Origin: a virus
IMG/VR virus record: IMGVR_UViG_3300032294_001020
Span: 1 to 36,133 of that record
Direction: 5' to 3' (one strand)
DNA length: 36,133 bases
Shown here: one piece after another, positions 11,366-27,864 of the stretch
Numbering within the stretch: position 1 is the first letter of the stretch
Layout of the letters: each line of letters opens with the position of its first letter
Notes under the pieces: model-generated
Seen by the model: only the letters and a program-made list of their open reading frames with translations
Databases searched by the model: none
What the model was told of the DNA's origin: nothing
Translations under genes and position numbers: made by a program

Positions 11366-12181
11366 TTACGCTTTCGGTGGTTTTCTCCGAATCGTCATCA
11401 TGACTGGAGTTTTTTTCTTGTCTCTACGAACAGCAGAAGCACTAGCTGGGTCGGTTGATGTTGCAACACCAGTGACATTTGTTGGACCAACTGAACCATC
11501 TTCATTAACAGATTTCCAACCACCACCCATAGCTTTATATTTTTTTGATGCCCATCCATTTGCATATGCGGATGGGTATACTGCAAATTTAGATTTGGCG
11601 GCCGCCTTAGCACGAGCCCATTTTTCTGGACTTGTAGGAACATTCTTTTCGTCTAGAACTCTCATTACCCATTCTTCTTCACCTTCTAAGACAGGAATAT
11701 CAAATTCTTCAGGTACACAATTTGGTACCATTTTACTACCTTTTTTCTTCAAACCTTTGGCTGTATATCCGTCCCAACAGGCTTCATCTACTTCTTCTGT
11801 CTTTACATTGATTGGTGCACCACGGCGTTCTGGATTAGGATCCTCTCTACGCTTTCTTTGAGCTGCAGAAGCACGAGCTTCTTTACCTATTGCGTGAGCC
11901 TTTGCTTGAGGTAAACACTTTGGTTTACCTTCACCTGGTTCTCTGGCACAGTCACCTTTGATATTACCTTTGGTGTCCATACGAACCCACTTCTGTTTGA
12001 ACCACTTGCGTAGGTCCTCATTTAATTCTGTTTTGGCATCTTCTAAACTAGGATATGAACCAATCTTTTCATTGTCTTTATAAACAACAAATGAGTTATC
12101 GACTTTCTCTATCCAGTTCGTACCATCATGGTATACGATTGAACCGTCATGTTCTAGTATATACTGTTTAAATGATTTCAT
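11366..12181 (-). CDS. Head-associated candidate with capsid-targeting-like N-terminus and DUF5872-like domain
   Basis: The 271-residue protein begins MKSFKQYILEH, fitting the pattern of the T4 capsid targeting sequence (aromatic residues at 4 and 7, I8, E10). A middle basic domain (RKWFKQKWVRMDTKGNIKG, then EPGEGKPKCLPQAKAHA and RREDPNPERRGAP) looks like DUF5872, from memory. A second block, WVMRVLDEKN to VYPSAYANGWASKKYKAMGGGWK, is a motif that recurs in phage virion-region proteins. The function is unknown; the basic domain suggests nucleic-acid contact. It is coupled by ATGA to the preceding gene (12178-12564) and stands at the end of the late block. Confidence 0.65.
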   Translation of the reverse strand: MKSFKQYILEHDGSIVYHDGTNWIEKVDNSFVVYKDNEKIGSYPSLEDAKTELNEDLRKWFKQKWVRMDTKGNIKGDCAREPGEGKPKCLPQAKAHAIGKEARASAAQRKRREDPNPERRGAPINVKTEEVDEACWDGYTAKGLKKKGSKMVPNCVPEEFDIPVLEGEEEWVMRVLDEKNVPTSPEKWARAKAAAKSKFAVYPSAYANGWASKKYKAMGGGWKSVNEDGSVGPTNVTGVATSTDPASASAVRRDKKKTPVMMTIRRKPPKA

Positions 12182-12564
12182 ATTTTTCTTAGTATCTCTG
12201 CGATATTTAAATCAACAGGTATTTCTGTTGTTCTTATTGTTTTGCCGTTTACACCACGAACAATCTCTGGTAGAATATTCAAGTATAACAAAAATGTTTT
12301 TAAAATATCATAATCTCTTTCATCTACTCTATAAAATAATATTCTTGCAGATGCTTCTGGACCAAAAACATTATTTAATAGAATAATATGATTTAATATT
12401 AATCTTTCTTTTAGAGTTTTAGTGACCTTATACCTACGAAATAATCTTTTTAAATATTTCGTTCTTTTAATGTCTCCCTCAAATTCCGACATAATACAAT
12501 TTGGTGTGTTATAACACTTCATCGCATACATCATAAAATTATCTTCATTCAAATCATCAAACAT
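12178..12564 (-). CDS. Conserved T4-like phage protein, 128 aa, function unknown
   Basis: An all-helical-looking soluble protein: FDDLNEDNFMMYAMKCYNTP, LKRLFRRYKVTKTLKERLILNHIILLNNVFG, ARILFYRV, TFLLYLNILPEIVRGV and IPVDLNIAEILRKI. From memory, proteins with the KERLILNHxIxLxNVFG pattern are widespread in T4-like cyanophages close to structural genes, with no established role. It has no membrane segment or catalytic motif. It overlaps its downstream neighbour by ATGA and follows the 12572-13033 gene by 7 bases, so it is expressed with the late block. Confidence 0.65.
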   Translation of the reverse strand: MFDDLNEDNFMMYAMKCYNTPNCIMSEFEGDIKRTKYLKRLFRRYKVTKTLKERLILNHIILLNNVFGPEASARILFYRVDERDYDILKTFLLYLNILPEIVRGVNGKTIRTTEIPVDLNIAEILRKI

Positions 12565-12571
12565 TTTATAA

Positions 12572-13033
12572 TTATTCTTCTATGTCGTTATCCTCAGGTT
12601 CCTCAAGAAGTTCAGCTAATTCATCTTCATCGAAAATTTTTGCTTCAGTTTCATAATGACCATCGTCTTTCATTTCATAAGAATAATAAAAAAAGTGTTG
12701 TGTTTCATCCAAGTTGTTCAACTTTTCTACCGAACCTTCTAACTCAGCACCTGACTTAGCACCAAACTGGTCTATTGCAATAATTTCTTCGCCTTCTTCC
12801 ATATCCTTAAAGGTAACCTTGGGGAGAGATATACCATATAAGCTTAATACTTTGGTTGCTCTAAACCAATCTGTATATGGACTAACTGAGTGACCAGCTG
12901 ATGCTAAGGCTAAGTTTCGGTTTATTTCTTGTCGAGTATTTTCACAAGAGATTCCACTCTTATCTTTTATTATAACAGCAGTGGGGAAATTAAAATCTCC
13001 CCCTTCCCTAATGAACTCTCGAAACTGCTTCAT
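12572..13033 (-). CDS. Head-associated candidate with capsid-targeting-like N-terminus, 153 aa
   Basis: It begins MKQFREFIREGG, the closest match in this window to a T4 head-protease processing site: I8-R-E10 followed by G. The rest contains a short conserved-looking domain (FPTAVIIKDKSGISCENTRQEI; YTDWFRATKVLSLYGISLPKV) and an acidic tail (FDEDELAELLEEPEDNDIEE). I do not recognise the domain. It overlaps the stop of the upstream virion-like gene (TAATG). If processed as in T4, the mature protein would begin at G11. Confidence 0.6.
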   Translation of the reverse strand: MKQFREFIREGGDFNFPTAVIIKDKSGISCENTRQEINRNLALASAGHSVSPYTDWFRATKVLSLYGISLPKVTFKDMEEGEEIIAIDQFGAKSGAELEGSVEKLNNLDETQHFFYYSYEMKDDGHYETEAKIFDEDELAELLEEPEDNDIEE

Positions 13034-13641
13034 TAAACACCTGAGAATACTGAATTGGTACTTGTATTTCCTGAACTTACATTGAGAGCAGTAGGTTCAG
13101 CAAGAACAACCAAAGTTTCTCTTAGTTGACGCTTAGTGCCGTCATTGTTCACTTTATAAGTGAATCGATTCCAGCCTTGGTGAATACCACTATTAGCACC
13201 AGCAATTAATGCATTGGCCAAACGTGTACCAGTTACTAAAATCGTGTCGTTAGCAAAACGAGATTGTGCATTAGAACCATAATTAATTGCGGTACCAAAG
13301 TAAACTCTTTCACCAGCAGCTATAGTTCCGATAACATTGTTTGCAAAACGAACAATACTGTTTCCAGCATCAACAGCACGAACTGAATTGTTAGCTCTGT
13401 AATAAACGATATCCGTAACAATAGATGTATCGAAATAACGAGATAAAGCGTTGTTCGCATCTAATGTGTATGCATATAGTCCAGCTGTGATACCTGCTGT
13501 TGTTGGATTAGTTGTAAAAACAACTGTGTTACCTGCTGTAGTTGCATTAGCGGTAACTAGGCTTGCGACCTCTACAATTTGACGCATCTCTGGAAAGAGA
13601 GGCTCATTGTTTGCTCGGTCAGTTTTTCCCCAAATTGGCAT
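13033..13641 (-). CDS. Probable virion structural protein, beta-rich, 202 aa
   Basis: It begins MPIWGKTDRANNEPLFP, close to the M-x-x-WGKTD start common in small structural proteins of T4-like cyanophages. The middle is threonine-, asparagine- and alanine-rich with repeated short units (ANNSVRAVD, RFANNVIG, RFANDTIL), typical of beta-structured capsid or fibre decorations. The end, GIHQGWNRFTYKVNNDGTKRQLRETLVVLAEP, matches the G-W-x...E-x-LVV closing part of the same group. A late-promoter-like box at 13675-13682 and a good AAGGAG ribosome site precede it, which fits high late expression. Confidence 0.75.
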   Translation of the reverse strand: MPIWGKTDRANNEPLFPEMRQIVEVASLVTANATTAGNTVVFTTNPTTAGITAGLYAYTLDANNALSRYFDTSIVTDIVYYRANNSVRAVDAGNSIVRFANNVIGTIAAGERVYFGTAINYGSNAQSRFANDTILVTGTRLANALIAGANSGIHQGWNRFTYKVNNDGTKRQLRETLVVLAEPTALNVSSGNTSTNSVFSGV

Positions 13642-13674
13642 TTTTTTCTCCTTATTAACCTCGGGTTTGTTAGT

Positions 13675-13682
13675 TATTTATC
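13675..13682 (-). promoter_or_regulatory. Late promoter-like box (GATAAATA)
   Basis: The minus strand reads GATAAATA in the 45-base gap between the 13687-15528 gene and the structural gene starting at 13641. The distance from box to ATG is about 33 bases, leaving room for a leader that contains AAGGAG. It differs from the T4 late element TATAAATA only at the first base. Position ahead of a probable structural gene supports it. Confidence 0.6.
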
Positions 13683-13686
13683 TAAA

Positions 13687-15528
13687 TTAATTCGGACTCT
13701 TTTTACCATCTTTTGAGAACACGTCTGGTCCTGGACGATTGTTCATTAATGGGTCAATTTGAACTGAGTCTCTTTTTTCACCTGTTAGTGTTTTACCACC
13801 ATACATTACAGAACGAGCCCCAGGTTTATTATCACCATAAGATTCTTCTTCTTCTGTTTTTTTGATTTTAACACCTTTACCTATAACCTGGGTGTTTTTG
13901 TCATCTTTTTCCCAATCGTAAGTTTCTTCTTTCATATTCTTACGTTTGTAGATTGATTTAATAATACGAGCAGATTTAGACATTTCACGTTTCTTTGGTG
14001 AAACATCATCAGTATTATTTGCACCATCAAAAGGCATTAATGTTGCTGCCTGTGAATCTTGATATGCATCTTCACTGGTTGGTTTACGACCAGTTAAACG
14101 GTCTAAAGCACGGTCCCAAGAAGCAGAACGAGATTTAATTCTCTTATTGAAATCTTTTCTGTCCATGCCAGGTTTCTTGGTAGGAACAACATCTTGTTGG
14201 CCTAACCAAGATTTTACAGTAGATTTTTTGAGTTCATCAATCTGTTCAGTTTCTTCTTGTGATAATTTCTTTTGATATTTTGCCATTTGAGCATATGTGT
14301 CAGCAGTTTTTGGCATATCTTTAGATGTTTTAGAATAGTGTGTATATCTGTCTGATTTTGCAGCAGCCACTTTCTTTTTCACATCTTTCATAAATTCACC
14401 AGATTCTTCTATTTGTTCTATTTCTTCCCTAACAATTTTTTCAACACTATGTAATGTATCTTCTTTGCCATCTTTTCTTTGTAAAACATTTAAAGTTTTG
14501 GCTTTAGCTTGTGCGTGTTTATCGTTATTGGCATGAAAGTGAACAACATATGACAACTTACCATTCTCATCATGGAAAATGGCAGCATGAGTTGCAGGTG
14601 CGTGTTCTGAATTTGATGCTTCTTCTTTATTCAAAGATTTTTCTAAACGGTCGATAGCACCTTTCATATCTTCTTTACCAGAAGCATGACGTGCTTTCAT
14701 TTCTCTTTCTGCATCATCATGCTTTCTAGCTCTTTCGGCAGCAGCTTGGCGAAACTTGTCTAATGCTGTGCCTTGAATAGTTTTGGCTTCTTCTAATTCA
14801 GATTCTTCTTTGACTTTATGTTTACCTGTGGCAACATAATCATAATCAGCCATTGAAAGAGTTCCTTTATTACGAATCTCAATTAATCTTTCTGTTAAAC
14901 TATGCAAATCCATATCTGTCTTAGCATCTTCACGAGCATATTCTAACAAACGAATCATCAAAGGAATATCAACAGTAATTGTATCTGTTGCATCCACTTC
15001 TTCTGTAAATCTAGCATACTTTGTTAAGTAATTAATTGTCTTTTGTCTAGTCTTAGGATTTTCTTTTTTATAGATTCCTGTTTCTTTTTTTTCTTTTTCT
15101 TTAGACTTTATAATTTTCTTAACATCAGCTGCGGTCTTTTTTCCTGGATCCATATAATTTTCATCAATTTCAGATTCATGTAATCCATTAGTTGTAATGG
15201 CAGCAGGTTTAACCTTGTGCATATGTTTTGCTTTTTTCAAAGCGTGCTGGCGTAATTCATATGGTGAATGTTGGGTAGTCATAGTCTCATCTAGTTCGGT
15301 TTCTTCAAACTGATGGTCTTGTTTCCACTTTAAGAATGTACCAGATTTAGCGTGAGAGATTTTAGTATCTTTTGAAACAAATTTAGGATTGATACCCTTC
15401 GATAACAAGTATCTGTCTAAAAGAGATTCTGCGATATTGGCTTTAGCTGCCCATGGATCCATAGGGTCAACTATTTTACCTCTTGCAGGTTCTGGATTCA
15501 TTTTAACCAAATCTTTTAACTTTTTCAT
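13687..15528 (-). CDS. Large low-complexity charged protein, putative head/internal virion protein
   Basis: 613 residues, very rich in K, E, D, A and T, with many short acidic boxes (FEETELDE, HESEIDEN, EESELEEAK, EEIEQIEE, EETEQIDE) separating basic helices. It starts MKKLKDLVKMNPEP, with no signal or membrane segment. One segment (ATHAAIFHDENGKLSYVVHFHANNDKHAQAKA) looks like a small folded domain. The acidic boxes contain several L/I-x-E sites like those cut by T4 head protease gp21, so it may be a scaffold or internal protein that is processed; that is inference. It shares composition and strand with the next gene and ends before the late-promoter-like box. Confidence 0.65.
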   Translation of the reverse strand: MKKLKDLVKMNPEPARGKIVDPMDPWAAKANIAESLLDRYLLSKGINPKFVSKDTKISHAKSGTFLKWKQDHQFEETELDETMTTQHSPYELRQHALKKAKHMHKVKPAAITTNGLHESEIDENYMDPGKKTAADVKKIIKSKEKEKKETGIYKKENPKTRQKTINYLTKYARFTEEVDATDTITVDIPLMIRLLEYAREDAKTDMDLHSLTERLIEIRNKGTLSMADYDYVATGKHKVKEESELEEAKTIQGTALDKFRQAAAERARKHDDAEREMKARHASGKEDMKGAIDRLEKSLNKEEASNSEHAPATHAAIFHDENGKLSYVVHFHANNDKHAQAKAKTLNVLQRKDGKEDTLHSVEKIVREEIEQIEESGEFMKDVKKKVAAAKSDRYTHYSKTSKDMPKTADTYAQMAKYQKKLSQEETEQIDELKKSTVKSWLGQQDVVPTKKPGMDRKDFNKRIKSRSASWDRALDRLTGRKPTSEDAYQDSQAATLMPFDGANNTDDVSPKKREMSKSARIIKSIYKRKNMKEETYDWEKDDKNTQVIGKGVKIKKTEEEESYGDNKPGARSVMYGGKTLTGEKRDSVQIDPLMNNRPGPDVFSKDGKKSPN

Positions 15529-15529
15529 A

Positions 15530-16897
15530 TTATTTCTCTGATAAATCGTTTTTAACTTTTTTAAATGCTTGACGAGCTAAGTCACGAGCACGGCTCATTG
15601 GTGTGTGTTTTGCACCTGATTTGTCGGTAACAACATCTTTTATTTTGGTGTATGGTTTATCAAATGGAGGAAGATTATTATCTTCTTTCATTGGACCACC
15701 ACGATACTTAACTTTGGTAGATTTACCATCAGCACCAGGACCAACGTCATCACTTTGTGTAGTAGGTAAACGACCTCTTAATGTATCTTTGCTACGAACT
15801 TTTGGGTCGATTTCTTCTTGAACATTGGCAGCTGTCATGAATTTCTTACGGTCAAAACGAGGATTTTGACGATGAAAAATTTCAGCATGATGTTGTGCTA
15901 ACTCTTTACGTTTATCATGTGAATCATGAGTTTTAATTAGGTCTGCAACCATTTGAAAGTCTTTACGAGAAACTGCCTCATCCAATTCTTCTTTCATCGC
16001 TTGTTTTGTAGCAGTAGCATACATTACATCTTTTGCTTGGTCACCATAACGTGCTTTGAAACCAGCTAAACCTTTTTTCATACCTTTAACAATCTTTTCA
16101 CGCTTGGCCATTTCATCATCGGTCATCTTGCGTTCTTCCAAATCATAAATTTCCAATAAACAATCAATATCTTCATCTGACCAATCTTCTTCTTCTTTAC
16201 GCAATTTAGCTAGAATCGCACCAGCGACTTTTTCACCACGTTCTTTAGAACCATATCTTTCGCCAGCTTTAGCTGCAATCTTGGCAAACATTTTACCTGG
16301 TTTACCAATATCTTTACCGGCTGCGGCCGCTTTTGCTGAATAACCGGCTTTCTCATCTAGTTCTTCAACTTCTTCATTTCTAGCTTTGGCTAAATTTTGA
16401 GAAGCAGAGATAGAATCTTTAGATGGTGCTTTGACTTCTGCTGGAGTTAAAGGTGCATCACCTTTTTGTTTACGCAAATAAGCTGGAATATCTGAACGCT
16501 TAACACTTTCAATCAATTTATCTTTGAAAGACATTTCTTCTTTCATTTCTTTTTCTTTAGGACCTTTAATATCATCAACCGCAGATTTAGTTTGGTCTTT
16601 ACGAGCTTTCTTAGAATCTCCGTAACGATGACCATAAACTTTCATACCTGTTGGTGTAGGAACTTTTTCTGAAGTGGCTTCTTGAACGGCTTCACCGTAA
16701 GTGACAGTCTCACCTTGAATACGAACAGGATATGTTTTACCCTTAAAGGTGAACATCTTTTGGCCAGATGAATGTGCAGCATAGGCAGCTTTACGCAAAC
16801 CGGTCTCATCGAGGTCAGCCTCATCCATTTTCTTTTCACTAATGACCGAATTTACGGCCTCCAACATTGATTTTGTTACTTTACTTTTTGTGAACAT
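15530..16897 (-). CDS. Low-complexity charged protein, putative head/internal virion protein
   Basis: 455 residues from the ATG at 16897, chosen because GGAGAATAAA precedes it; a longer frame to 16924 lacks such a site. It begins MFTKSKVTKSMLEAVNSVISEK. Alternating basic and acidic blocks follow (EEVEELDEKA, LRKEEEDWSDEDID, MKEELDEAV). One region, RKDFQMVADLIKTHDSHDKRKELAQHHAEIFHRQNPRFD, appears to be a folded helical domain seen in other T4-like aquatic phages, from memory. It resembles its downstream neighbour in composition and is likely a virion or prohead component. Function unknown. Confidence 0.65.
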   Translation of the reverse strand: MFTKSKVTKSMLEAVNSVISEKKMDEADLDETGLRKAAYAAHSSGQKMFTFKGKTYPVRIQGETVTYGEAVQEATSEKVPTPTGMKVYGHRYGDSKKARKDQTKSAVDDIKGPKEKEMKEEMSFKDKLIESVKRSDIPAYLRKQKGDAPLTPAEVKAPSKDSISASQNLAKARNEEVEELDEKAGYSAKAAAAGKDIGKPGKMFAKIAAKAGERYGSKERGEKVAGAILAKLRKEEEDWSDEDIDCLLEIYDLEERKMTDDEMAKREKIVKGMKKGLAGFKARYGDQAKDVMYATATKQAMKEELDEAVSRKDFQMVADLIKTHDSHDKRKELAQHHAEIFHRQNPRFDRKKFMTAANVQEEIDPKVRSKDTLRGRLPTTQSDDVGPGADGKSTKVKYRGGPMKEDNNLPPFDKPYTKIKDVVTDKSGAKHTPMSRARDLARQAFKKVKNDLSEK

Positions 16898-16911
16898 TTT
16901 ATTCTCCGTTA

Positions 16912-17232
16912 TTAACAGTTCCACTTGCGTAATGCTTTGTTGATTCTTGAATCCGGGTCATTTGCAGTTTTAGCTGAAGTCAATCTTTTCTTCATACCAC
17001 CCATTCTGGCACAGAAAGACTTTCTACGCTTAGCTGCTTTTGAACCTGGTTTTAATTTTGATGGTTTTGTTGTTACTGCCATCGAAAGCTTTGAACCTGG
17101 ATTTTCTCTACGATAAGAAGCAATACCCTTACGGTTTAAACCACCTTCGGGGTCTTTTCCTGCTGATGTTTGCCAAGCAGGAGATTTTTCATCTAGGTAT
17201 TCTTCATTGATGAACTGCTTAAATGTTCTCAT
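16912..17232 (-). CDS. Head-associated candidate with DUF6321-like basic domain, 106 aa
   Basis: The start at 17232 gives MRTFKQFINEEYLDEK, nearly the T4 capsid targeting sequence with I8-N-E10. The body is a compact basic domain: KLSMAVTTKPSKLKPGSKAAKRRKSFCARMGGMKKRLTS, then DPDSRINKALRKWNC. From memory this is the pattern of DUF6321, function unknown. The many basic residues would suit binding packaged DNA. Its ATG lies inside the end of the upstream adenylyltransferase-kinase gene (14-base overlap), whose AAGAAGAAG codons serve as the ribosome site. A longer frame starting at 17277 is unlikely. Confidence 0.7.
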   Translation of the reverse strand: MRTFKQFINEEYLDEKSPAWQTSAGKDPEGGLNRKGIASYRRENPGSKLSMAVTTKPSKLKPGSKAAKRRKSFCARMGGMKKRLTSAKTANDPDSRINKALRKWNC

Positions 17233-18979
17233 CTTTTTTCTTCTTCTTTTTGATAGTATAATATCCTGCCGTAGCAAACTTCTGTAAAGGAGTTTCTAAA
17301 GGTTCTTTGTTTGTTGCGCCATGTTCACCACCTGAAACACCCATATCAAAGGCACCTGGGTCATCTATCGCCTCAACAAACTGTTTAAATTTCTTAAAAT
17401 CTTTTTGTTCACTATATGTGACGTTGCCAAGTCCTGACATAGGGTATACTGTTCCCTGTTGGCGTGTATCGAATTCTGGTCCAACCCCTTGAGCTCTAAT
17501 AGCTCCACTAGCTTGATTTGACCACTTCCTCTTACTATTTATTTCGTCTTTGTCTTTTTGGAAGTTTGGCTTCTTGGGCGGCGGGTAGACTTTGATTTTT
17601 GGTTCTTCGGCTTCAACGTAGGTACGGAAGATGTAACTGGAGTTTGGGGCAACGTCACCGTCTCGGACGTCATCGATTTTTCCAAGTTTTCTTTGGAATT
17701 GCATGACGGGGGAGTTGTTGTCTCGCAAGGGTTTACCGTTGGTTTTACCTTTAATATATTTACTAGAAAATCTATTAATTTTTTGAACATTTTTTTCTTC
17801 CTTAAAGTTTCTTTCTATCCAATCTTCGGATGTTTCATTTACAGTCTTAACATCTAAAAATTTCTTTGTAAATTCATATACTTCATGAATATCTTGTTCT
17901 TTAGTTTCAATATTTCCGGTATTGTCAAAAGAAACGAAACTAATAAATCCTTCATTGAAATATTTAGTATTTCTCTGAGATTTAATCCATTTATCATGAC
18001 GGATTGATTCTACCATCATTCTTGATAATAGTGAATTTCTTTCTTTACTAACTTCATCAGTTGTGCTGACGAATACCATCATTGTTTCGTAACCTAGTTC
18101 TTCAAGTTCTTCTTTGATGTAACCAATCTTTTCTCTATCGTCAGCTGGACCATTAATAATTAAAGGACCACGAGTTCTGATAGCCTCTCTGCGAAAGTCT
18201 CCTGATTTTTCTGATAATTTCTGTTTATCAGCTAAGTAATCTCTGGCTTGTATAAAGTTTAACTCTACAATCTTGCTTTCGGCAATAGCGTCACGAATTA
18301 TGATGTCTTTACCTGAACCTGGACCACCAGTAACAAAAATAGCTTTAAATTTGCCACGACTAAAATCTTCATGCAAACCCATACCTTTTCTTGTGTCGTG
18401 CATCAGTTCTTTAGCGTGTTTATCTGACACATGACTAGGAATGCCTTTTTTGAACTCATGAACATTGTTGCTCTTGGCGTGTTCTCTCATCTTAGAGGCT
18501 GACATACCTTCAGTTCCCTCTGCATCAGGGTCACGATGTCCAGCAGAATGAACGGTAATCTTTTTAAAGTTATATAATGCACCCTCATGTGTGCCGTTAT
18601 ATTTGTGTAATTTTTCTTTCATTTCTTTAACACGGTCTGAACCAACAACCATATGCAAATGTGTCACACCTTGTTTGTGTGCTTTTTCTGCATGATGTAG
18701 AAATGTAGGATGCTCTTTTGATGATGTTTCAAAATTTGTACCAGGTGAATATCTCTGTAAGTGTTTTACTTTCTGTTCACCAGATAATGGATTCTTTTTA
18801 GAATCTTGGGAATGTGAAACTACAACGGAATGTGATGCATCGTGTTTTGAAGCAACTTCTTTGACTTTATCGATAAGTTTCAAATGACCTGTCGTAGGAG
18901 GATTCATACGACCAAACGTCATAACATGGTGTTTTTCACCAGTTTGTTTTTCTTCAACTAACTGTAAAAATGATTTCAT
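17219..18979 (-). CDS. Adenylyltransferase-like / P-loop kinase-like fusion protein with capsid-targeting-like N-terminus
   Basis: 586 residues. It starts MKSFLQLVEEK, a variant capsid-targeting-like sequence. Residues 18-200 form a nucleotidylyltransferase fold: GRMNPPTTGH at 23-32 (the HxGH-type loop with T-x-GH), HMVVGSDRVKEM, and the closing MSASKMR at 159-165 that matches the ISxTxxR signature. Residues 210-385 form a P-loop NTPase with GGPGSGKD (218-225). The order adenylyltransferase then kinase recalls NadR, but the substrate is unknown. A linker and a C-terminal segment (522-586) containing FKKFKQFVEA, a second targeting-like sequence, follow. Bases 17541-17735 use C-ending codons unlike the rest. 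It overlaps the ligase-like gene by ATGA. Confidence 0.75.
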   Translation of the reverse strand: MKSFLQLVEEKQTGEKHHVMTFGRMNPPTTGHLKLIDKVKEVASKHDASHSVVVSHSQDSKKNPLSGEQKVKHLQRYSPGTNFETSSKEHPTFLHHAEKAHKQGVTHLHMVVGSDRVKEMKEKLHKYNGTHEGALYNFKKITVHSAGHRDPDAEGTEGMSASKMREHAKSNNVHEFKKGIPSHVSDKHAKELMHDTRKGMGLHEDFSRGKFKAIFVTGGPGSGKDIIIRDAIAESKIVELNFIQARDYLADKQKLSEKSGDFRREAIRTRGPLIINGPADDREKIGYIKEELEELGYETMMVFVSTTDEVSKERNSLLSRMMVESIRHDKWIKSQRNTKYFNEGFISFVSFDNTGNIETKEQDIHEVYEFTKKFLDVKTVNETSEDWIERNFKEEKNVQKINRFSSKYIKGKTNGKPLRDNNSPVMQFQRKLGKIDDVRDGDVAPNSSYIFRTYVEAEEPKIKVYPPPKKPNFQKDKDEINSKRKWSNQASGAIRAQGVGPEFDTRQQGTVYPMSGLGNVTYSEQKDFKKFKQFVEAIDDPGAFDMGVSGGEHGATNKEPLETPLQKFATAGYYTIKKKKKKDENI

Positions 18980-20151
18980 TTTCTTACTTTTAAAAGGTTT
19001 GCTTTTGCGAATTCTGTCCTATTTACCAACTTTGTTGGCTCACCTGCATGGTGAACAACGAATCCTTCAGGTTTGGACTTCTTACTATCTATATGATGTT
19101 CCAAACCGCCTTCGTGTTGATTTAAAGTATTAACTAACACATTTTTTGCTTGTTGTAAGTGGTGATGCATTTTCAACAAATTATTATAATGTTCTTGATT
19201 GTTTTCAATGTGATTAGTATGCGATTTAGCTTCAGTTTCCTTACGTGCTTGTGCAGCTGGAGTTTTTAACTTTGCAGATGCTTTCTTATACTTGTCTTGA
19301 ATATGTTTTTGTAGACCTTTTGCAGTTGGGACTTCATCAGTTCTAACTGTATGGTTAATATATGTGGACAAGTGGCCAGTTTCACCACGGTGTGGTTCTG
19401 TAGCATGATACATTTGTTTACCATGTTTATCGTGTATCTCTTGTGCAGCTGCCATATGTTTCTTAAACTGTTCTTGAGCTTTGTCAGAATAATTTACTTT
19501 ACTGGTATCATGTTCAGCTGATTTGTGCCACACATCATCGTGTTGTTTGAAGTTGTGAACATCTGGATGTGGGTCGGCTTTCATATCGGTAATATTCTTA
19601 CCGTGATATTGCGTATGCACAACAACACCAACTTTTGCCTTTTTAATTTTGTCAGCCTGTTCACCTTTGGCTGTGTATTTTATGGTATTTGGAGTAAATG
19701 AGACACCACCTTTGTGTTCATGTTTATCGTCATGACCAAACATAATGTCACCTTGATACACTCCTTTCTTAGGAGTGACCTTGGCAAGGTGTAAGGCGTC
19801 TTTTAATTTACTAACCAAACCTGGTGCGTGGCCGTGATTCTTCTCAATATCTTTTTCAGTATAGTTAATCTTTGGGTTCTTATTGAAGGCTGACTTACTT
19901 GCCACAAAAAACTTACCATTTTCTGGATGGTGACCAAAAACCACAGCTGGCGAACCATCATATTTCATGGTAAGATGTGAACTGTGGCCACCAGACTTAA
20001 TATGCTCATGAGAAGTATTTAATGCATCTCTGGCGTGTTCAAATCCTTTACCACCATGAAACAATGGCCTATCTTCAGCATGGTGAATATGCTTTAGTTT
20101 TCCATCAGCTTCTTGAGTTTCTTCTTTAAGAAACGTTAAAAACGACCTCAT
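18976..20151 (-). CDS. Ligase-like nucleotidyltransferase (KxDG) with capsid-targeting-like N-terminus; DUF6267-like
   Basis: 391 residues from the ATG at 20151, which has AAGGAAATCA before it; the frame is open to 20178 but without a ribosome site. N-terminus: MRSFLTFLKEE. The motifs of covalent nucleotidyltransferases (DNA/RNA ligases) appear in order: motif I K63-Y-D-G66 in LTMKYDGSPAVVFG, FFVASKS, motif III-like GDIMFG (134-139), a GVVVHTQYHG strand, motif IV-like EGFVV (362-366) and TKLVNR as a possible motif V. Known relatives attach AMP or GMP to lysine and seal or cap nucleic acid. The protein is unusually histidine- and lysine-rich. From memory it corresponds to DUF6267. It is the first gene after a perfect late promoter. 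Confidence 0.68.
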   Translation of the reverse strand: MRSFLTFLKEETQEADGKLKHIHHAEDRPLFHGGKGFEHARDALNTSHEHIKSGGHSSHLTMKYDGSPAVVFGHHPENGKFFVASKSAFNKNPKINYTEKDIEKNHGHAPGLVSKLKDALHLAKVTPKKGVYQGDIMFGHDDKHEHKGGVSFTPNTIKYTAKGEQADKIKKAKVGVVVHTQYHGKNITDMKADPHPDVHNFKQHDDVWHKSAEHDTSKVNYSDKAQEQFKKHMAAAQEIHDKHGKQMYHATEPHRGETGHLSTYINHTVRTDEVPTAKGLQKHIQDKYKKASAKLKTPAAQARKETEAKSHTNHIENNQEHYNNLLKMHHHLQQAKNVLVNTLNQHEGGLEHHIDSKKSKPEGFVVHHAGEPTKLVNRTEFAKANLLKVRK

Positions 20152-20196
20152 TGATTTCCTTCTTGAATTGCAACACACTTTGGTTGCCGGTTTGCT

Positions 20197-20204
20197 TATT
20201 TATA
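20197..20204 (-). promoter_or_regulatory. Late promoter, perfect T4 consensus TATAAATA
   Basis: The minus strand reads TATAAATA 46 bases before the ATG at 20151. It lies in a 123-base gap, one of the few real intergenic spaces here, between the glycan island and the head-associated block. T4 late promoters consist of just this -10 element, read by RNA polymerase with gp55 and gp33. It should drive the block from 20151 to about 11366 and perhaps the lysis genes. Confidence 0.8.
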
Positions 20205-20274: not shown

Positions 20275-20985
20275 TTAAAATTGAGTTCCTTCAAAATCTA
20301 ACCAATAATTGGTCATCCTACCTTTACCTTGCAATAAGTAAAATGGTAGTGTATGAACCAATCCTCGGCTGGAACCATAGTATATCAGGTCTTTAGGTCC
20401 TCTGTCAAGTGCCCATGCAAAGTGACTAGAACCAGTATCACCACCAATAAAGATTTCGGTGGTGGTAATGTGGTAATAATTCTGAACAAAGTTGGTAGAA
20501 TATCTCCATCCTTCAAATGGACAACCTTCGGTAGGTTCACCTTTTTTACAGATTATTTTCTCATAATCTCTATATTCTTCGGTACTATATTTTTCAATCA
20601 AATGTGGTAATAATTCTTTTGGCCAGTTTCTCCATTGATTATATGGTGCATCAAATAAAGGAAAAATTGTAATCTTTTTTTCCATTGGTGCATTGTTTGG
20701 TATTTTAACTAAATCACCAGATATATCACGGAAATCCCAAACATTAACTTTTCTCCAAGGTAAAGTCTCTGTGCCTTCTTCTTTTGAGAAATAGTTAGTC
20801 ATTTTCAACATTATCTCATAAAATGTTTGACAATGTGTGTCTCCACTAATATTGCCAGGTTTTAAATGAAACTGTATTGTAGGATTGTTATTGATTTTTC
20901 TTATGTGTTCTAAGACATTTGCAACAGCAATCATATCACCATTACGAACTGTACCAAAAGTACCTGGCTCAATATTAACAATCAT
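20275..20985 (-). CDS. GT9/GT-B-like glycosyltransferase family protein, 236 aa
   Basis: A soluble protein whose C-terminal part, TEIFIGGDTGSSHFAWALDRGPKDLIYYG, matches the D-x-G-x-x-H-x-A pattern by which heptosyltransferase-type (GT9) enzymes bind the nucleotide-sugar donor. The N-terminal half (MIVNIEPGTFGTVRNGDMIAVANVLEHIRK) could be a Rossmann-like acceptor domain. It is shorter than usual GT9 enzymes (about 320-350). The neighbour at 20982-21722 has a similar GT-B character and overlaps by ATGA. The donor and acceptor are unknown. Confidence 0.6.
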   Translation of the reverse strand: MIVNIEPGTFGTVRNGDMIAVANVLEHIRKINNNPTIQFHLKPGNISGDTHCQTFYEIMLKMTNYFSKEEGTETLPWRKVNVWDFRDISGDLVKIPNNAPMEKKITIFPLFDAPYNQWRNWPKELLPHLIEKYSTEEYRDYEKIICKKGEPTEGCPFEGWRYSTNFVQNYYHITTTEIFIGGDTGSSHFAWALDRGPKDLIYYGSSRGLVHTLPFYLLQGKGRMTNYWLDFEGTQF

Positions 20986-21722
20986 AGTAAACTTTCCAAT
21001 TCTTTTGCATGAACTAATTTAGATTTTCTATTCAAATAAAAATGCTTCTCGAATACCTTAGTAATATCTTTACCGTTATCCCAACTCACATTATCACCAA
21101 CCCTAAATTCTGGTTTCCAATCTTCTGCTTTCCACACACAATATAATGGAACATTACATAAGTCCGCCAACATACCAACACCAGTAAAATTAGTAATAAA
21201 TGGTTTCTTTAAATTCTTAATGATATAAGCATTTTCTAACATCGGTCTATCAAAGTCTATAAACTCACATCCTTTTAAATGTGATAAAACATGGGTTTCT
21301 CTGCGTTCATCGATATTACCAACCGCCCATCTATCACCAACATAATATGCATCTTTCACAGTAATATCATATTCCGGTGTTTTTACTGTGAAATCATCAT
21401 CAACATCGAATTTCAATCCATATCGGTCTTTCAACCAATTTTCATAACGACAAGTTTCGATTGGCCTATTTGGGTCATTTTTATCTTCTCTTGTCCAAGA
21501 ACTTAATTGAATGATGTCACCATAAAGAAAACAATCATCATCAAACTCTACTGAATTAAATAAATCTTGATACAATAAAAACTCTTTTAATCCTTTGAAT
21601 TTTTTCATATCAGATTTCATGATGAAATCATATTTGCCATACGATTTAGATACACCTGATAAAACAGGCATAGCATTTAAGAAATCACCTAGATTTGCGG
21701 TACAGTTAAGATAAATCTTCAT
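20982..21722 (-). CDS. GT9-like glycosyltransferase-related protein, 246 aa
   Basis: The start at 21722 (MKIYLNCTANLGDFLNAMPVLSGVSKSYG) has AAGGATTATA just before it; the longer frame to 21776 begins inside the upstream gene without a site. The N-terminal G-D-x5-P-x-L...YG pattern is that of the acceptor domain of heptosyltransferase-like GT-B enzymes. Near the C-terminus PFITNFTGVGMLADLCNVPLYCVW resembles the donor-binding region with the usual H lost. It overlaps the HtrL-like gene by 17 bases and its downstream neighbour by ATGA. A role in making a phage-specified glycan is inferred. Confidence 0.58.
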   Translation of the reverse strand: MKIYLNCTANLGDFLNAMPVLSGVSKSYGKYDFIMKSDMKKFKGLKEFLLYQDLFNSVEFDDDCFLYGDIIQLSSWTREDKNDPNRPIETCRYENWLKDRYGLKFDVDDDFTVKTPEYDITVKDAYYVGDRWAVGNIDERRETHVLSHLKGCEFIDFDRPMLENAYIIKNLKKPFITNFTGVGMLADLCNVPLYCVWKAEDWKPEFRVGDNVSWDNGKDITKVFEKHFYLNRKSKLVHAKELESLL

Positions 21723-22509
21723 TATAATCCTTAAAAACAATAAACCAATCTTGTTCTGATACTTTGCGTAATTCAAAATAATCAGGTCTCTGGAGATAAG
21801 ACATTAATAATAATGTTTGGTCATCATCAACCAAATTATTCTTTAGTAATTCATTCATACTGTGATGCACAAGGCCTTCTAGAACATTCCACATCTCTTT
21901 ACCTGCAATAATGCAAGGACCTGTAATGTGAACGTCATTGGTTGCAATCACATCTTGTATGTAAGTTCCTTCTTTCCAATCTTTAATGTTGAAGAAATGT
22001 ATTTTATCTTTATCGAAAGGATACTTCCAATGTGTTACTCCGTTTAAAGTCGATTCATCTCTACAATATCCAAAGTCTAACCAAGCAACAAGGTCTGTTT
22101 CTACCAAGTTTGTTGATATAGCTTTATTAACAAAAGAAGATTTTAATGCATTAACCACAACATAATCAGCATTCCAATATTCTGGATTCTTAACCTGTGA
22201 TGGATGTATTTTGGATTGATATTCTGGATTGTTTTGAACTTCAGAAACTTTTTCTCTCAAGGTTTTAAAACAGTCTTTGAAATCCAAAGGAATAATTTCA
22301 GTTGGTTTATCTTTTCTAATTTCTTTGATTTGTTCAACCAAATCTTCAGAAGTAAAAATGATAATTTTATTATCAAGTTTAGCTAAATTAGAAAATCTTT
22401 GAATATAGGTTTGTGTTGTTCTTTGTAGATAGTGTGGTAAACCTTTATCTGGTGTCCAATCACCACGGCCAATATCAAAGAAGGCCGTTACAATAGTAAT
22501 ATCACTCAT
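21706..22509 (-). CDS. HtrL/YibB-like putative glycosyltransferase
   Basis: From the ATG at 22509 the protein is 267 residues: [18 protein letters not shown], then a Y-x-x-RF helix, KIIIFTSEDL, a long acceptor-like helical region, LVAWLDFGYCRD, and VHITGPCIIAG. The start ITIVTAFFDIGRG, the WLDFG acidic metal-type site and the overall size fit the HtrL/YibB (WlaTC) family found in LPS gene clusters. A longer frame to 22593 would add a hydrophobic stretch lying inside the upstream gene and is rejected. The gene overlaps its upstream neighbour by 8 bases (ATGAGTGA). Confidence 0.7.
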   Translation of the reverse strand: MSDITIVTAFFDIGRGDWTPDKGLPHYLQRTTQTYIQRFSNLAKLDNKIIIFTSEDLVEQIKEIRKDKPTEIIPLDFKDCFKTLREKVSEVQNNPEYQSKIHPSQVKNPEYWNADYVVVNALKSSFVNKAISTNLVETDLVAWLDFGYCRDESTLNGVTHWKYPFDKDKIHFFNIKDWKEGTYIQDVIATNDVHITGPCIIAGKEMWNVLEGLVHHSMNELLKNNLVDDDQTLLLMSYLQRPDYFELRKVSEQDWFIVFKDYNEDLS

Positions 22510-23236
22510 AGTAGTATTTTTTATAATTGTTAATAATTTCAATGTTATCAGGTACAGATGCAACAAAACCATCATAATCATAACCAGCAACATGATGATG
22601 TGTATCAGTTAAGTGTTCATTTACTGAATAATCTTTTCCACACAGATAATAATATACAACCATGAAACAATCAATCCATCCAAATGTTGGATATAAATTC
22701 TTCATGATAAAATCACCTTGTGTTTCAAAGAATTTTACAACTTTAGAATAATTATCTAAAAAAGTCTTTACATTATATATTGAACCACCACCGCCACCAT
22801 ATTGTTTAAATGTAGGTCTTTTACCATTAAATCTTTCAATCATATCATGAACAGATTCGGGAATTATATTACCAATTCTAATGTCATGGCAAGCCATCTC
22901 CCATTCAGGATTAATTGTAACAGGTTTGACAACCAAGACATCATCTTCGGCCATCATGATGTGTGTAGTATCACATCTCTCACAAGCCATTCTGAATCTT
23001 TCTAGGAATTTTAGAACTCTATCGATGTCATAGCCATATGGTTGTGTTGGTGCACCTAATTTATCTAAGAAATGAACATAATGGCAATTATATTTGTGTG
23101 CAATAGGTGAAAGGTCTGAAGCTGCATCTGTGCCTAAAAAATAAAATGCATCTGGATGATGTTGCCTAATGCTTTTAACAACGTGTTCAGTTGCTTTTAA
23201 ATTATTCACACCAATGTGAAAAAAAGAAATACTCAT
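22502..23236 (-). CDS. Putative glycosyltransferase, GT-A-like, 244 aa
   Basis: It begins [37 protein letters not shown], the alternating strand-helix start of a nucleotide-sugar fold. [15 protein letters not shown] supplies an EDD acidic motif like the DxD that binds metal and sugar nucleotide, and [14 protein letters not shown] a glycine-rich loop often seen in acceptor pockets. I cannot assign a CAZy family. It overlaps the decarboxylase gene (ATGA-type) and the HtrL-like gene, so it belongs to the glycan island. Confidence 0.62.
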
Positions 23237-24165
23237 ACCATTTTCCTAAAATAATCAATCGTTTTTTGTAAACCTGTTTCTAATTGAACATGAGGTTTCC
23301 ATAATAAATTTTTTCTAGCTACAGTAATATCAGGTTGTCTTTGTTTTGGGTCATCTTTCGGTAAAGGATGAAAAACAATCTTACTTTTTGATTCGGTCAT
23401 CTTAATAACCAATTGTGCCAATTCCAACATAGTAAATTCATTGGGATTACCTAGATTAACTGGACCAGTAAATGAACCAGAATCCATCATCTTTAATAGT
23501 CCATCAATCAAATCATCAATATATTGGAAACTTCTTGTTTGTGAACCGTCACCGTAGATTGTAATATCTTCATTATTCAATGCCTGAATTATAAAATTAC
23601 TAACGACACGACCATCATTGGTTGCCATGTTTGGTCCGTAAGTATTAAAAATTCTAACTATTTTAGTTTTAACACCATGAATTCTACTATAATCATTAAA
23701 TAGAGTTTCAGCTGCACGTTTGCCTTCATCATAACAACTTCTTGGTCCTAAGGGATTGACGTTACCCCAATAGGATTCAATCTGTGGGTGTATTTGTGGG
23801 TCGCCATATACTTCTGATGTTGATGCTTGTAATATCTTTGCACCTGTTCTTTTGGCTAATCCAAGCATATTGTATGCACCCAATACACTAGTTTTCATAG
23901 TTTGTATTGGGTCTCGTTGATAGTGGATTGGTGATGCTGGGCAAGCTAAGTTATAAATCTCATCAACTTCAACATAAAGTGGAAAACAAATATCCTGTCT
24001 AATAAACTCAAAGTTTTTATAGTCCATTAGATGTCTTATATTCTTGTAAGAACCAGTATAATAATTATCAACACATAGAACATGATGGCCTTGATGTGTT
24101 AATTTTTCACAAAGATGACTACCAATAAATCCGGCACCACCCGTTACTAATATTTTTTTAGTCAT
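23233..24165 (-). CDS. UDP-glucuronate decarboxylase (UDP-xylose synthase)-like
   Basis: A 310-residue extended short-chain dehydrogenase: [22 protein letters not shown]-binding site, the [17 protein letters not shown] signature typical of UDP-xylose synthases, STSEVYGDP with the catalytic Ser/Thr, and Y-x-x-x-K in [21 protein letters not shown] and [12 protein letters not shown] complete the family. It converts UDP-glucuronate to UDP-xylose with NAD+ as a recycled cofactor. The ATG at 24165 overlaps the upstream stop (TAATG); a start three codons earlier lies inside that gene. The dehydrogenase-like gene at the left edge could make its substrate. Confidence 0.9.
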
Positions 24166-24728
24166 TATTTCCAAACAATAAACACAATATTATCGTATGC
24201 ACCTGTTCGACCACGTAAGTCGTAACAAGCCCATTTTAAATCACCAACCAAATCTTTGAATTTAGGAATAACTTCAAGTAAGTGAATATCTTCAATTACT
24301 AAAACTCCACCTGGTTTAACTTTTGGTATATACAATTGCAAAAATTTAGTCCAAGTTTCTTCATTATGTGGACCATCATCAATTACAATATCCAATTCAG
24401 GTAGATTTGATACGAGTTCTTCACTATAAGCATTACCAATTATTGGACATAATCTTTCATATCTTGCCATAATGTCATGGTCATACAACTTATCTTTATC
24501 AATACCTGCGATTGCAGCTTTTGGAAAATAATCATTCCAGAGGTACATACTTCCACCGTTAGCAATACCTATTTCTAATAAATTAATTTCCTTATCTTTG
24601 TAGGGTGCAAATAACCAATCATAAATTTGACTGCAATAGTGGTGAGGATTTTCTTTGTCTGTTGTAAATCCACCTGAAGTTAACTCTTGATAGTTATTAT
24701 TGTGTTGTAGAAGTTCAACTAATGTCAT
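24165..24728 (-). CDS. Class I SAM-dependent methyltransferase, 187 aa
   Basis: [16 protein letters not shown] is motif I, the SAM-binding loop; [12 protein letters not shown] is the acidic motif II that holds the ribose; [13 protein letters not shown] is motif IV with D-D-x-x-H, often metal binding; [14 protein letters not shown] follows as the post-core strand. The D-D-x-x-H plus EDIH pattern is frequent in methyltransferases from sugar and antibiotic clusters. The acceptor is unknown, probably a sugar hydroxyl given the neighbours. Confidence 0.8.
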
Positions 24729-25256
24729 TTAAACTCTTTTTAAAATTGTTAGTCCGTTGTTGTTTGTTCTACGTTCAACCAATTGCCATTCTGGATGAGA
24801 GTCGATGAATTCTTGAATTGCAGGCCAGATTCCTTTGCCACCAAATTCACCTTGGTCAGCAAATGTGGTTGTATCATGAAACAAGAGGTACTTTTTAACC
24901 TTGTCAGCGTGTAATCTAAGTTCTTCTTGAACTTGTTCGTAAATATGTAAACTGTCTACCAACATTAAATCGGTTTCTTCGATTACAACTTTTCTAGTAT
25001 CATCAACATGGAGAGTTACACGTCTACCAGAGTTTGCAGCCTCTTGAAAGAATTCCCTGATACCAGGTAGAGGATTAAATTCGTAACTGTGTAATGTGAT
25101 GTCGTGTCTCAAAAAGGCACGAGTGCTTTGAGCCCAACCTACACCCAACTCTGTAACGTGTTGACATTGTGATGTCAATTCTGATAGAACAGGTAAGTGT
25201 TCATGTATGTCTGTATCTTTTGCACAAGCATCTTGATATTCTTTTTCAAAGTCCAT
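24729..25256 (-). CDS. Class I SAM-dependent methyltransferase-like, 175 aa
   Basis: HVTELGVGWAQSTRAFL is motif I, LHSYEFNPLPGIREFF the acidic strand, TDLMLVDSLHIYEQVQEEL the motif IV region with D-S-x-H, and KKYLLFHDTTTFADQG the HD strand typical of cephalosporin-hydroxylase-like and sugar O-methyltransferases. It lies one base before the next methyltransferase gene downstream and 9 bases after the dehydratase gene. Likely acts on a sugar of the island's glycan; substrate unknown. Confidence 0.75.
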   Translation of the reverse strand: MDFEKEYQDACAKDTDIHEHLPVLSELTSQCQHVTELGVGWAQSTRAFLRHDITLHSYEFNPLPGIREFFQEAANSGRRVTLHVDDTRKVVIEETDLMLVDSLHIYEQVQEELRLHADKVKKYLLFHDTTTFADQGEFGGKGIWPAIQEFIDSHPEWQLVERRTNNNGLTILKRV

Positions 25257-25265
25257 TTTATTTCC

Positions 25266-26300
25266 TTATTTTATTTTTAACCAACGGTCGTTAGCTAATG
25301 TCCAATTAACAACTTGTTCAATTCTTTCACTTAGAGCAATCTTTGGTTCCCAACCAAGGGATTTCATATAATCACCACTCAATGAATATCTCAAATCATG
25401 TCCAGGTCTAGCAGAATGAAAGTCATTCATTTCATAATGCAATTCTTTACCTTGAACCTTTGCAATCATTTTTGCTAAGGATAGATTATCTATTTCTTCT
25501 GGTCCAACGAGATTGAACTTAGGACACTTTGCACCACCATAATCTTTGTCAATAGGAATCTCAACAGGTCTGGTCAACAAAAATAATAATCCTTCAGCTA
25601 CATCTTTTGCATGAATGTAATGGCGAGAACCTGCTTGTGTTTTGGATGGGTCAGAGTGAATCATAATTGTTTCACCAGCACGAACTCTGCGAATACACAA
25701 AGGAATGTATTTCTCTGGATGTTGTCTTTCACCAAACACATTCATTGTATGTGTAATAAAAATTGGCATACGATATGTGTTCTCAAATGCCACACAGATT
25801 TCTTCGGCCGCTGCCTTAGATGCTGAATATGGATTAGTTAAATTATATCTATCTCGTTCTTTATAATAAACTCCTGCCGGTGCAGGACCAAATACTTCAT
25901 CTGTTGAGAAGTAAACGAATCTTTCTAGATTACGTAGATTTCTGGCATAGTTTAATAAATTTGTTGTGCCTACTACATTGTCCATTACGAATTCCATTGG
26001 ATATTCGATTGAACGGTCTACATGAGAACCAGCTGCAAGGTGTAAGACAATATTAATATCACCAAGTAAACTTGTAATCTGTGGATTCAATTCGGCTCTT
26101 AAATCATGATAAACAATCTGCACCCGTTTTCTATCTTCTGGTGAGAATTGTTCCATGATGTCAGCAAGACGATTAAGATTACCAGAGAAATCTAACCTGT
26201 CGAGAGATACAATTTCCCAATCTGTTTTCTGAATCAATGTCTCAATCAAATGGTGGGCAATAAAACCTGCACCACCGGTCACTAATACTCTTTTAGCCAT
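25266..26300 (-). CDS. dTDP-glucose 4,6-dehydratase-like NAD-dependent epimerase/dehydratase
   Basis: A 344-residue extended [25 protein letters not shown] site, HLAAGSHVDRSIEYPMEF as in RmlB, FVYFSTDEVFGP carrying the T-D-E triad used for dehydration, NPYSASKAAAEEI with Y-x-x-x-K, and MNVFGERQHPEKYIP. RmlB makes dTDP-4-keto-6-deoxyglucose; the T-D-E triad shows a dehydratase rather than a simple epimerase, although the nucleotide carrier is not certain. No rmlA, rmlC or rmlD is seen, so the substrate and later steps must come from the host or from outside the window. Confidence 0.86.
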   Translation of the reverse strand: MAKRVLVTGGAGFIAHHLIETLIQKTDWEIVSLDRLDFSGNLNRLADIMEQFSPEDRKRVQIVYHDLRAELNPQITSLLGDINIVLHLAAGSHVDRSIEYPMEFVMDNVVGTTNLLNYARNLRNLERFVYFSTDEVFGPAPAGVYYKERDRYNLTNPYSASKAAAEEICVAFENTYRMPIFITHTMNVFGERQHPEKYIPLCIRRVRAGETIMIHSDPSKTQAGSRHYIHAKDVAEGLLFLLTRPVEIPIDKDYGGAKCPKFNLVGPEEIDNLSLAKMIAKVQGKELHYEMNDFHSARPGHDLRYSLSGDYMKSLGWEPKIALSERIEQVVNWTLANDRWLKIK

Positions 26301-26305
26301 AATTA

Positions 26306-27166: not shown

Positions 27167-27864
27167 GGGAAAGTTCCGTTATATTTTTTGTTCATTACTT
27201 CGTTGCCATTAATAAAGAATTCTGCATTAACCGAACCTTTATTTCCATCTACTCTATAACAAGTAGTATATTCATTTGTGCAATCCCATTTAGGGAAATA
27301 TTGTGAAATTGCTGATAAGAAAACTCTATCTTGTCCCCAACCACCGTGCCAAACTTGTGCTAATTTTATCGCAACTTCTGTCTTAACGCAATAGCTATTA
27401 GTATCAATATGATTAATACCATGATAAGTTTGCCATTTACCTAGAGATTCACAGTCATCAAAACAAACAAAGTTGCCTTGTTTATTGTATATTTGTCTTA
27501 GTGAATAACACCAATCTAGGTTTCTTTTTTCAATAGTTTCTACACATTTTGCCACATGACTTTGATATAACCAATTATCTTGGTCTAACCATAAGACATA
27601 ATCGGTATTAATTAAATGTGTGAAAGCTGCATACACTCTATGTCCGTAAAATCCTTTGGCACCAACGTTTACGGGTAAATAACAAACTTTCACTCGTTCA
27701 TCGTGTGTGTATGCATCAATAATTTTCTTTGCTTGTTCGTAGTGTTGTTCACCATCAACTACAATGTAACACTCTGTAAGAGCATAAGTTTGTGCCAAAA
27801 CAGAATCGATAGCCGTCTTTAAATCAGGTGAACCAGTGGTTGGAATAATTACAGTAGCGCTCAT
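27148..27864 (-). CDS. Glycosyltransferase family 2
   Basis: A typical GT2 start, MSATVIIPTTGSPDLKTAIDSVLAQTYALTECYIVVDG, gives the UDP-sugar binding strand and helix. YVLWLDQDNWLY holds the D-x-D metal site. GGWGQDRVFLSAIS carries the downstream acidic residue that acts as catalytic base. At 238 residues it is a single soluble domain without the C-terminal membrane helices of polysaccharide synthases. It follows a methyltransferase gene without a gap. Confidence 0.82.
   Translation of the reverse strand: MSATVIIPTTGSPDLKTAIDSVLAQTYALTECYIVVDGEQHYEQAKKIIDAYTHDERVKVCYLPVNVGAKGFYGHRVYAAFTHLINTDYVLWLDQDNWLYQSHVAKCVETIEKRNLDWCYSLRQIYNKQGNFVCFDDCESLGKWQTYHGINHIDTNSYCVKTEVAIKLAQVWHGGWGQDRVFLSAISQYFPKWDCTNEYTTCYRVDGNKGSVNAEFFINGNEVMNKKYNGTFPWRQKT

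Follow-up and report, generated by a model that had tools for sequence, protein, structure and literature searches.

Five proteins encoded in a 36-kb fragment of a freshwater T4-like phage (IMG/VR virus record IMGVR_UViG_3300032294_001020, positions 1 to 36,133, all of which was analysed and is called the window here) begin with a ten-residue tag that resembles the capsid targeting sequence (CTS) of phage T4, which in the T4 internal proteins IPII and IPIII is MKTYQEFIAE (PMC9026906, summarising Mullaney and Black 1996). The presence of this tag on five proteins is real and lies far beyond chance. It is very probable that the five N-termini are working T4-type CTSs, by which the proteins would be loaded into the prohead, cut, and ejected with the DNA. 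The evidence supports a known T4 capsid-targeting device that is extended to enzyme cargo in aquatic phages. As judged from translations of the open reading frames (ORFs), the window carries, all on the minus strand, genes for gp43, UvsX, gp41, gp61, NrdA/B, and RNase H. The tagged proteins are encoded in a block of nine genes at 11366-20151, five tagged and four untagged, that lies between the replication genes gp41 and gp61. From 20151 downward the genes of the block are as follows.

18976-20151, minus strand: DUF6267 protein, 391 amino acids (aa), CTS-type start MRSFLTFLKE (residues 1-10, DNA 20122-20151), Pfam PF19782
17219-18979, minus strand: predicted nucleotidyltransferase (HxGH) and P-loop kinase, 586 aa, CTS-type start MKSFLQLVEE, from PF01467 and Foldseek
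16912-17232, minus strand: DUF6321 protein, 106 aa, CTS-type start MRTFKQFINE, PF19846 E=4e-19
15530-16924, minus strand: 464-aa protein without the tag (GTG start; shorter from a conserved ATG)
13687-15528, minus strand: 613-aa protein without the tag
13033-13641, minus strand: 202-aa protein without the tag, N-terminus and map position like those of a cyanophage virion structural protein
12572-13033, minus strand: acidic 153-aa protein, CTS-type start MKQFREFIRE, no Pfam and no PHROG match
12178-12564, minus strand: 128-aa DUF7207 protein without the tag, PF23837 E=1e-36
11366-12181, minus strand: 271-aa modular basic protein, CTS-type start MKSFKQYILE, phrog_727-like modules and sub-threshold DUF5872

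An earlier note on this DNA had claimed minus-strand ATG starts at 20151, 18979, 17232, 13033, and 12181 followed by these decapeptides, and this was found to be so. Mechanical ORF calls gave longer non-ATG starts for two of the tagged proteins (GTG at 20178 and TTG at 17277); the homologs agree with the ATGs. The ten-residue pattern described in that note is present in all five proteins: residues 4 and 7 are aromatic, residue 8 is aliphatic, and residue 10 is E, except that one protein has L at position 7. The pattern has to be qualified at two points, namely, that residue 7 may be F, Y or L, and that the (L/I)-x-E site ends at residue 10 in only four of the proteins. In the protein starting at 18979 the site ends at residue 9 (L7-V8-E9), and the tripeptide that ends at E10 has V, not L/I, at its third position from E. 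The strict pattern matched 5 of the 47 gene starts in the window when 0.005 would be expected from its frequency of 1 match per 10,111 internal positions of the window proteome, and for a looser pattern 0.019 N-terminal matches would be expected. When the N-termini were shuffled in 5,000 trials the maximum was 1 match with the strict and 2 with the loose pattern. The tag is at 5 of the 9 gene starts of the block as against 0 of the 38 other genes in the window (p=8e-5).

The tag was then followed through homologs whose starts were chosen by alignment and not by motif. Family counts were done per protein because motif-based clustering had joined proteins with shuffled domains into a single group of 205. 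Among 118 unique N-termini of DUF6267 proteins, F4 is found in 116, F or Y at position 7 in 115, L or I at position 8 in 116, and E10 in 116, with positions 2, 5, 6, and 9 free; the entropy is 0.14, 0.53, 0.50, and 0.14 bits at positions 4, 7, 8, and 10 compared to 1.2-2.6 bits at positions 2, 3, 5, 6, and 9, and F4 and E10 are invariant in 33 aligned homologs. The nucleotidyltransferase family, whose body is unrelated to DUF6267, has F4 in 124 and E10 in 122 of 129 N-termini, positions 7 and 8 being looser and mostly hydrophobic, and M1, K2, F4, and E10 are invariant in 28 homologs. In the 153-aa family all 19 homologs have F4 and F or Y at position 7, and 13 of the 19 have E10. CTS-type starts are present in 75 of the 94 unique N-termini of DUF6321 homologs and in 56 of the 90 N-termini of homologs of the 271-aa protein. 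The four untagged block proteins served as negative controls, and the tag was found in 0 of 93 homologs of the 464-aa protein, 5 of 91 homolog N-termini of the 613-aa protein, 0 of 37 homologs of the 202-aa protein, and 0 of 79 homologs of the DUF7207 protein. The codons for F (TTT/TTC) and for E (GAA/GAG) vary and, therefore, selection acts on the peptide. Amber-suppressor mutagenesis of T4 IPIII has shown that targeting depends mainly on residues 4 and 7 and processing on residues 8 and 10 (PMC9026906), and the conserved positions of the tag match these one by one. A basic residue 2, given as a rule in the earlier note, did not hold because DUF6267 homologs carry L, Y or Q there, and the exact pattern that requires K/R at this position was dropped as a rule for the same reason.

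In three near-complete relatives the tag is at 9 of 40 block gene starts and at 0 of 559 other genes (p=1e-11). This is the enrichment in the late block that the earlier note had proposed to look for, and the tag is not equally common at the starts of early genes, the finding that the note had named as telling against it. When the core motif was searched for in its DNA form in T4, S-CREM2, S-SZBM1, and 11 relatives, 52 matches were found on the two strands as against 3 for a backwards control. In the 169 kb of T4 this DNA form has no matches other than IPII, IPIII, and gp61.1, and IPI escapes it on account of a longer tag. Over 235 related loci, 265 of the 268 unique tagged ORFs are on the strand of the block. 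Related blocks adjoin gp41, and also gp61 where the region shown reaches that far, in the cyanophages S-SZBM1, S-SCSM1, S-SM1, Syn1, and S-PM2 and in phage HTVC008M.

That the block is late had been a guess, and it is now backed by a promoter.

20197-20204, minus strand: T4-type late promoter TATAAATA, the only exact copy in the window, heading the block

The DUF6267 gene, which is the first of the block, begins 45 nucleotides (nt) after TATAAATA, and the sequence NATAAATA is within 120 nt upstream of the DUF6267 gene in 104 of 106 unique relatives compared to 2.2% of random 120-nt stretches. A promoter-like site, GATAAATA, is at 13675-13682 before the gene for the 202-aa protein. The head machinery that such a tag would need is present in relatives: gp21 (PF03420) is in 9 of 11 long related contigs, gp20, gp21, gp22, and gp23 are in all four genomes examined, and an L-x-E tripeptide is found near the T4 cut site in the gp23 of those four genomes and of two cyanophages.

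Published virion proteomes also bear on the tag. Of the 219 genes of S-CREM2, 52 have products detected by mass spectrometry (PMC10665884). The pattern M[KR].[FYL]..[FYLWVI][ILVMF].[ED] matches four of the 219, namely, the SAM hydrolase, gp13, the APH-like kinase, and the cytidylyltransferase, and all four were detected (p=0.003); among them are three of the non-structural proteins for which the authors did not decide on packaging (PMC10665884). The record of S-SCSM1 has 282 genes with 48 marked as virion proteins, and among these are block genes 89-93, 95, and 97; the NMNAT starts MKSFLQFLKE. In S-SZBM1, where 30 proteins were detected, one is the cytidylyltransferase, which starts MRFRQFIIE and so has the tag one residue shorter. 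T4-GC190 of S-SM1, reported in virions (PMC3037559), starts MKKFSAFLNE, and the S-CREM2 virion cytidylyltransferase starts MKNFSSFLTE. Thus the cytidylyltransferase of the block, an ortholog of the protein starting at 18979, is in the virions of four cyanophages (S-SM1, S-SCSM1, S-CREM2, and S-SZBM1) and is in all four either tagged or one residue short of it. When S-CREM2, S-SCSM1, and S-SZBM1 were pooled, 5 of the 9 matches to a T4-functional pattern were detected (p=0.012), and we regard the pooled virion evidence as supportive, not conclusive. The S-CREM2 virions also contain a Cas9-like protein, gp12 (OR473000, 7704-10313), in whose N-terminal part, at about residues 15-25, the stretch KPLRFASFMAE resembles the tag; going by this sequence, the tag may not have to be at the extreme N-terminus.

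The reading in the earlier note of T4-type prohead loading is supported by the conservation of the T4 functional positions, the head machinery in relatives, the late promoter, and the tagged homologs in virions. Packaging, cleavage, and ejection of the five proteins, and any activity that they have in the host, are what we infer. The tagged proteins would be transcribed late from the TATAAATA promoter, and the aromatic residues 4 and 7 would dock them on the prohead core, a gp22-type scaffold, where they would be enclosed as the shell grows. A gp21-type prohead protease would then, by a cut after (L/I)-x-E (residue 9 or 10), free the mature protein, which would remain in the head with the DNA and be ejected into the next host. 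The cargo would be the ligase-like DUF6267 protein, the nucleotidyltransferase-kinase, and the three smaller proteins, of which two are basic.

Several observations weigh against this reading. The window is a fragment and does not have gp21-gp23. The DUF6267 proteins of S-SZBM1, Syn1, S-PM2, and S-SM1 are without the tag, which is, therefore, not universal in this family; S-SZBM1 gp141, one of these untagged proteins, was not detected by mass spectrometry, and this counts neither for nor against. Among tagged proteins, the small gp191 and gp192 of S-SZBM1 and one small protein of S-SCSM1 were not detected. With the strict pattern 4 of 6 matches in the three pooled proteomes were detected (p=0.011), which is a modest enrichment, and the cytidylyltransferase matches are orthologs and hence not independent. 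Lists obtained from particles purified in caesium chloride can include contaminants, as the authors of two of the proteomes point out. The body of DUF6267 proteins is depleted in L/I-x-E (0.78 per protein compared to 2.43 in shuffled and 2.68 in reversed sequences), and this depletion is absent in the nucleotidyltransferase; it is confined to DUF6267 and is, thus, a weak point in favour of the reading. The idea that tagged proteins in general avoid internal gp21 sites was rejected on this ground. Finally, several block proteins that were detected in virions are untagged, so that of the rule proposed in the earlier note, by which head proteins would be predicted from their N-termini, one part stands, in that the tag marks candidates, and the other does not, in that head proteins are not all recovered.

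Three other explanations were weighed. The tag could be a docking peptide for some other assembly such as the baseplate, the tail or a replication complex, its likeness to the T4 CTS being a convergence of short amphipathic helices with an acidic end. This would fit a peptide that is short and helix-prone (residues 2-10 in the DUF6267 model), the position of the block next to replication genes, and the tagged proteins that were not seen in virions. It would not explain why the conserved positions are those that mutagenesis in T4 assigns to targeting and to protease processing, why each of the five tags has (L/I)-x-E at its end, why two of the three T4 matches are proven internal proteins, or why tagged homologs are present in virions, and we consider it unlikely. 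The virion enzymes of cyanophages could also be abundant contaminants, a concern raised by the authors of two of the proteomes themselves, in which case the support from mass spectrometry would be void and the tag would be left with the sequence support. This is very unlikely since the SAM hydrolase, gp13, the APH-like kinase, and the cytidylyltransferase of S-CREM2 are exactly the four tagged among 219 genes, and a tagged cytidylyltransferase has been reported in four separate proteomes.

That the five N-termini are a common segment left by recent gene duplication or fusion, without a present function, is hardly credible even though the domain modules of the block are shuffled among its genes. 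An idle peptide would decay evenly, and uniform divergence over the ten positions was tested for and not seen: positions 2, 3, 5, 6, and 9 have diverged freely, positions 4, 7, 8, and 10 are nearly fixed, and the codons vary synonymously. The CTS reading remains the one that we prefer.

The DUF6267 protein matches PF19782 with E=2.6e-97, and its K63-x-D65-G66 (KxDG motif) and E362-G363-x-V365 (EGxV) are invariant, which suggests a covalent nucleotidyltransferase of the DNA/RNA ligase superfamily. Foldseek gave no significant match (tRNA ligase, prob 0.23; Rnl, prob 0.12), and the protein was not accepted as a proven ligase because neither Foldseek nor the PDB profile search was significant. 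Its AlphaFold model has a mean pLDDT of 89.1, with values below 50 at residues 2-15, and the last three residues are also not confident. The tag is thus disordered in the model, as expected of a detachable tag; a helix is drawn at residues 2-10. The protein starting at 18979 is predicted to be a nucleotidyltransferase joined to a P-loop kinase: the HxGH domain matches PF01467 with E=2e-6, over the cut-off, and the kinase part matches polynucleotide kinase 4gp6 in Foldseek (E=3e-5, prob 1.00), adenylate kinase folds also having prob 1.00. A PDB profile search with the nucleotidyltransferase family gave no match at E<=0.01. It is a guess that such a kinase-ligase pair would suit the repair of RNA or DNA nicked at entry. 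Four of the five tagged proteins are basic (isoelectric point, pI, 9.2-10.5), the DUF6321 protein having pI 10.5, and the 153-aa protein is acidic with pI 4.4. The 271-aa protein has modules in common with S-CREM2 gp160 and S-SZBM1 gp139, both detected by mass spectrometry. As the earlier note said, the bodies are unrelated to T4 IPI-III, the best BLAST match (DUF6321 with IPIII, E=0.029) not being significant. The N-terminus of the untagged 202-aa protein, MPIWGKTD, resembles that of the "virion structural protein" Syn1_166/S-PM2d145 and of SZBM1_136, which was detected by mass spectrometry; the 202-aa protein has no BLAST match to SZBM1/CREM2.

Viral contigs were scanned with one strict form of the tag. 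At least 120 stretches were found, with 128 matches among those listed, compared to 9 stretches for a codon-permuted control. Among the matches listed, 127 of 128 begin a frame that is 40 codons or longer or that runs past the contig end, as against 24% of ATGs, and they form 58 clusters that are mutually without detectable relation, most of them without a recognised domain among those scanned. T4-like core genes are present at 90 of the 120 loci listed. The domains behind the tag in these matches are DUF6267, nucleotidyltransferase with DUF5824, a HicA-DUF6321 fusion, DPBB (RlpA-like), methyltransferase (sub-threshold), DUF5662, and ART-PolyVal. We think it somewhat likely that a single short tag for entry into the head serves T4-like phages of lakes and seas as a general loader for a large and quickly changing repertoire of effectors and repair enzymes that are injected. 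The proposed repertoire comprises ligase-like, nucleotidyltransferase-kinase, ADP-ribosyltransferase, HicA-like, methyltransferase, and DPBB/RlpA-like proteins and many unknown ones. If this is true, the head contents of uncultured T4-like phages would be largely readable from N-termini. Cyanophage proteomics leaves undecided whether virion enzymes are cargo or contamination, and the tag is an independent sequence criterion that picks out several of them. The little-used CTS of T4 becomes a search tool in this way, and the 58 unrelated candidate clusters of head cargo make the head contents of aquatic phages testable.

In common with T4 IPII and IPIII, the proteins of the block have the length and spacing of the tag, aromatic residues 4 and 7, aliphatic residue 8, E10, and L/I-x-E at the tag end, and bodies that are mostly basic and diverse behind one tag. 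They differ from IPII and IPIII in that the bodies are unrelated and large proteins predicted to be enzymes (391 and 586 aa) are among the cargo in place of small basic proteins, in that DUF6267 does not require a basic residue 2, and in that the block is between gp41 and gp61. T4 gp61.1, a hypothetical protein of 54 aa (MKTFKEFIKE; AF158101, 18966-19130), is tagged and encoded at the same place between gp41 and gp61, but unlike the block proteins it is short, with a lysine/glutamate-rich tail and no cargo domain. No report of gp61.1 as a head protein was found in the literature; from its sequence we predict that it is a further T4 internal protein. T4 Alt, an injected ADP-ribosyltransferase, is like the proposed cargo an enzyme that gp21 processes and that travels in the head until it is ejected into the host, but its propeptide is shorter (7 residues, PMC9026906) and is not a tag of the IPII/IPIII type, and no Alt homolog was seen in the window. 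An N-terminal signal also packages the large anti-restriction protein DarB of P1 (PMC9024508), but unlike the tag there is no consensus among Dar proteins. Polyvalent proteins (PMC5512222) are likewise predicted to be packaged, injected effectors; they are defined by domain fusions and not by this tag, although one tagged protein carries ART-PolyVal. Among the papers searched none was found that connects this tag with virion enzymes of cyanophages or with T4-like phages of aquatic habitats, and since the device is known from T4 it is the extension to these phages and to this cargo that appears to be new.

Between the late promoter and the start of the DUF6267 gene there is a further element.

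20170-20187, minus strand: 5' leader hairpin GCAAC-CAAAGUGU-GUUGC with the loop CAWAGUGU

The loop is conserved, and in 30 relatives compensatory changes are seen in 4 of the 7 predicted pairs. The combination of hairpin and promoter occurs once in the window and once in each of three relatives (G001, G002, and G006). The hairpin has no Rfam match, and it may be an element of translation control or mRNA stability of the cargo operon.

Some loci from the contig scan were of separate interest. In L367 (5915-9422, minus strand) five tagged genes with unrelated bodies form one 3.5-kb run, a candidate cargo island. The eight-member cluster to which L330 (12007-12630, plus strand) belongs has the tag, a HicA toxin domain, and DUF6321 in a single protein, and this domain composition suggests that an RNase domain of toxin-antitoxin type may be loaded into heads. 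In L379 (6037-6813, plus strand) the tag precedes a polyvalent-type ADP-ribosyltransferase (ART-PolyVal, E=1e-23), which would parallel T4 Alt in function by means of another targeting peptide. The tagged 319-aa protein of L389 (10569-11525, minus strand) has no Pfam or PDB match and contains the motifs EKTDG, RGEAF, and GTEGLIV, which are reminiscent of ligases. In the window itself, the region directly upstream of the block (20275-28467, minus strand) carries genes predicted from sequence to act on sugars or polysaccharides, namely, nucleotide-sugar epimerases and glycosyltransferase-like and methyltransferase-like proteins.

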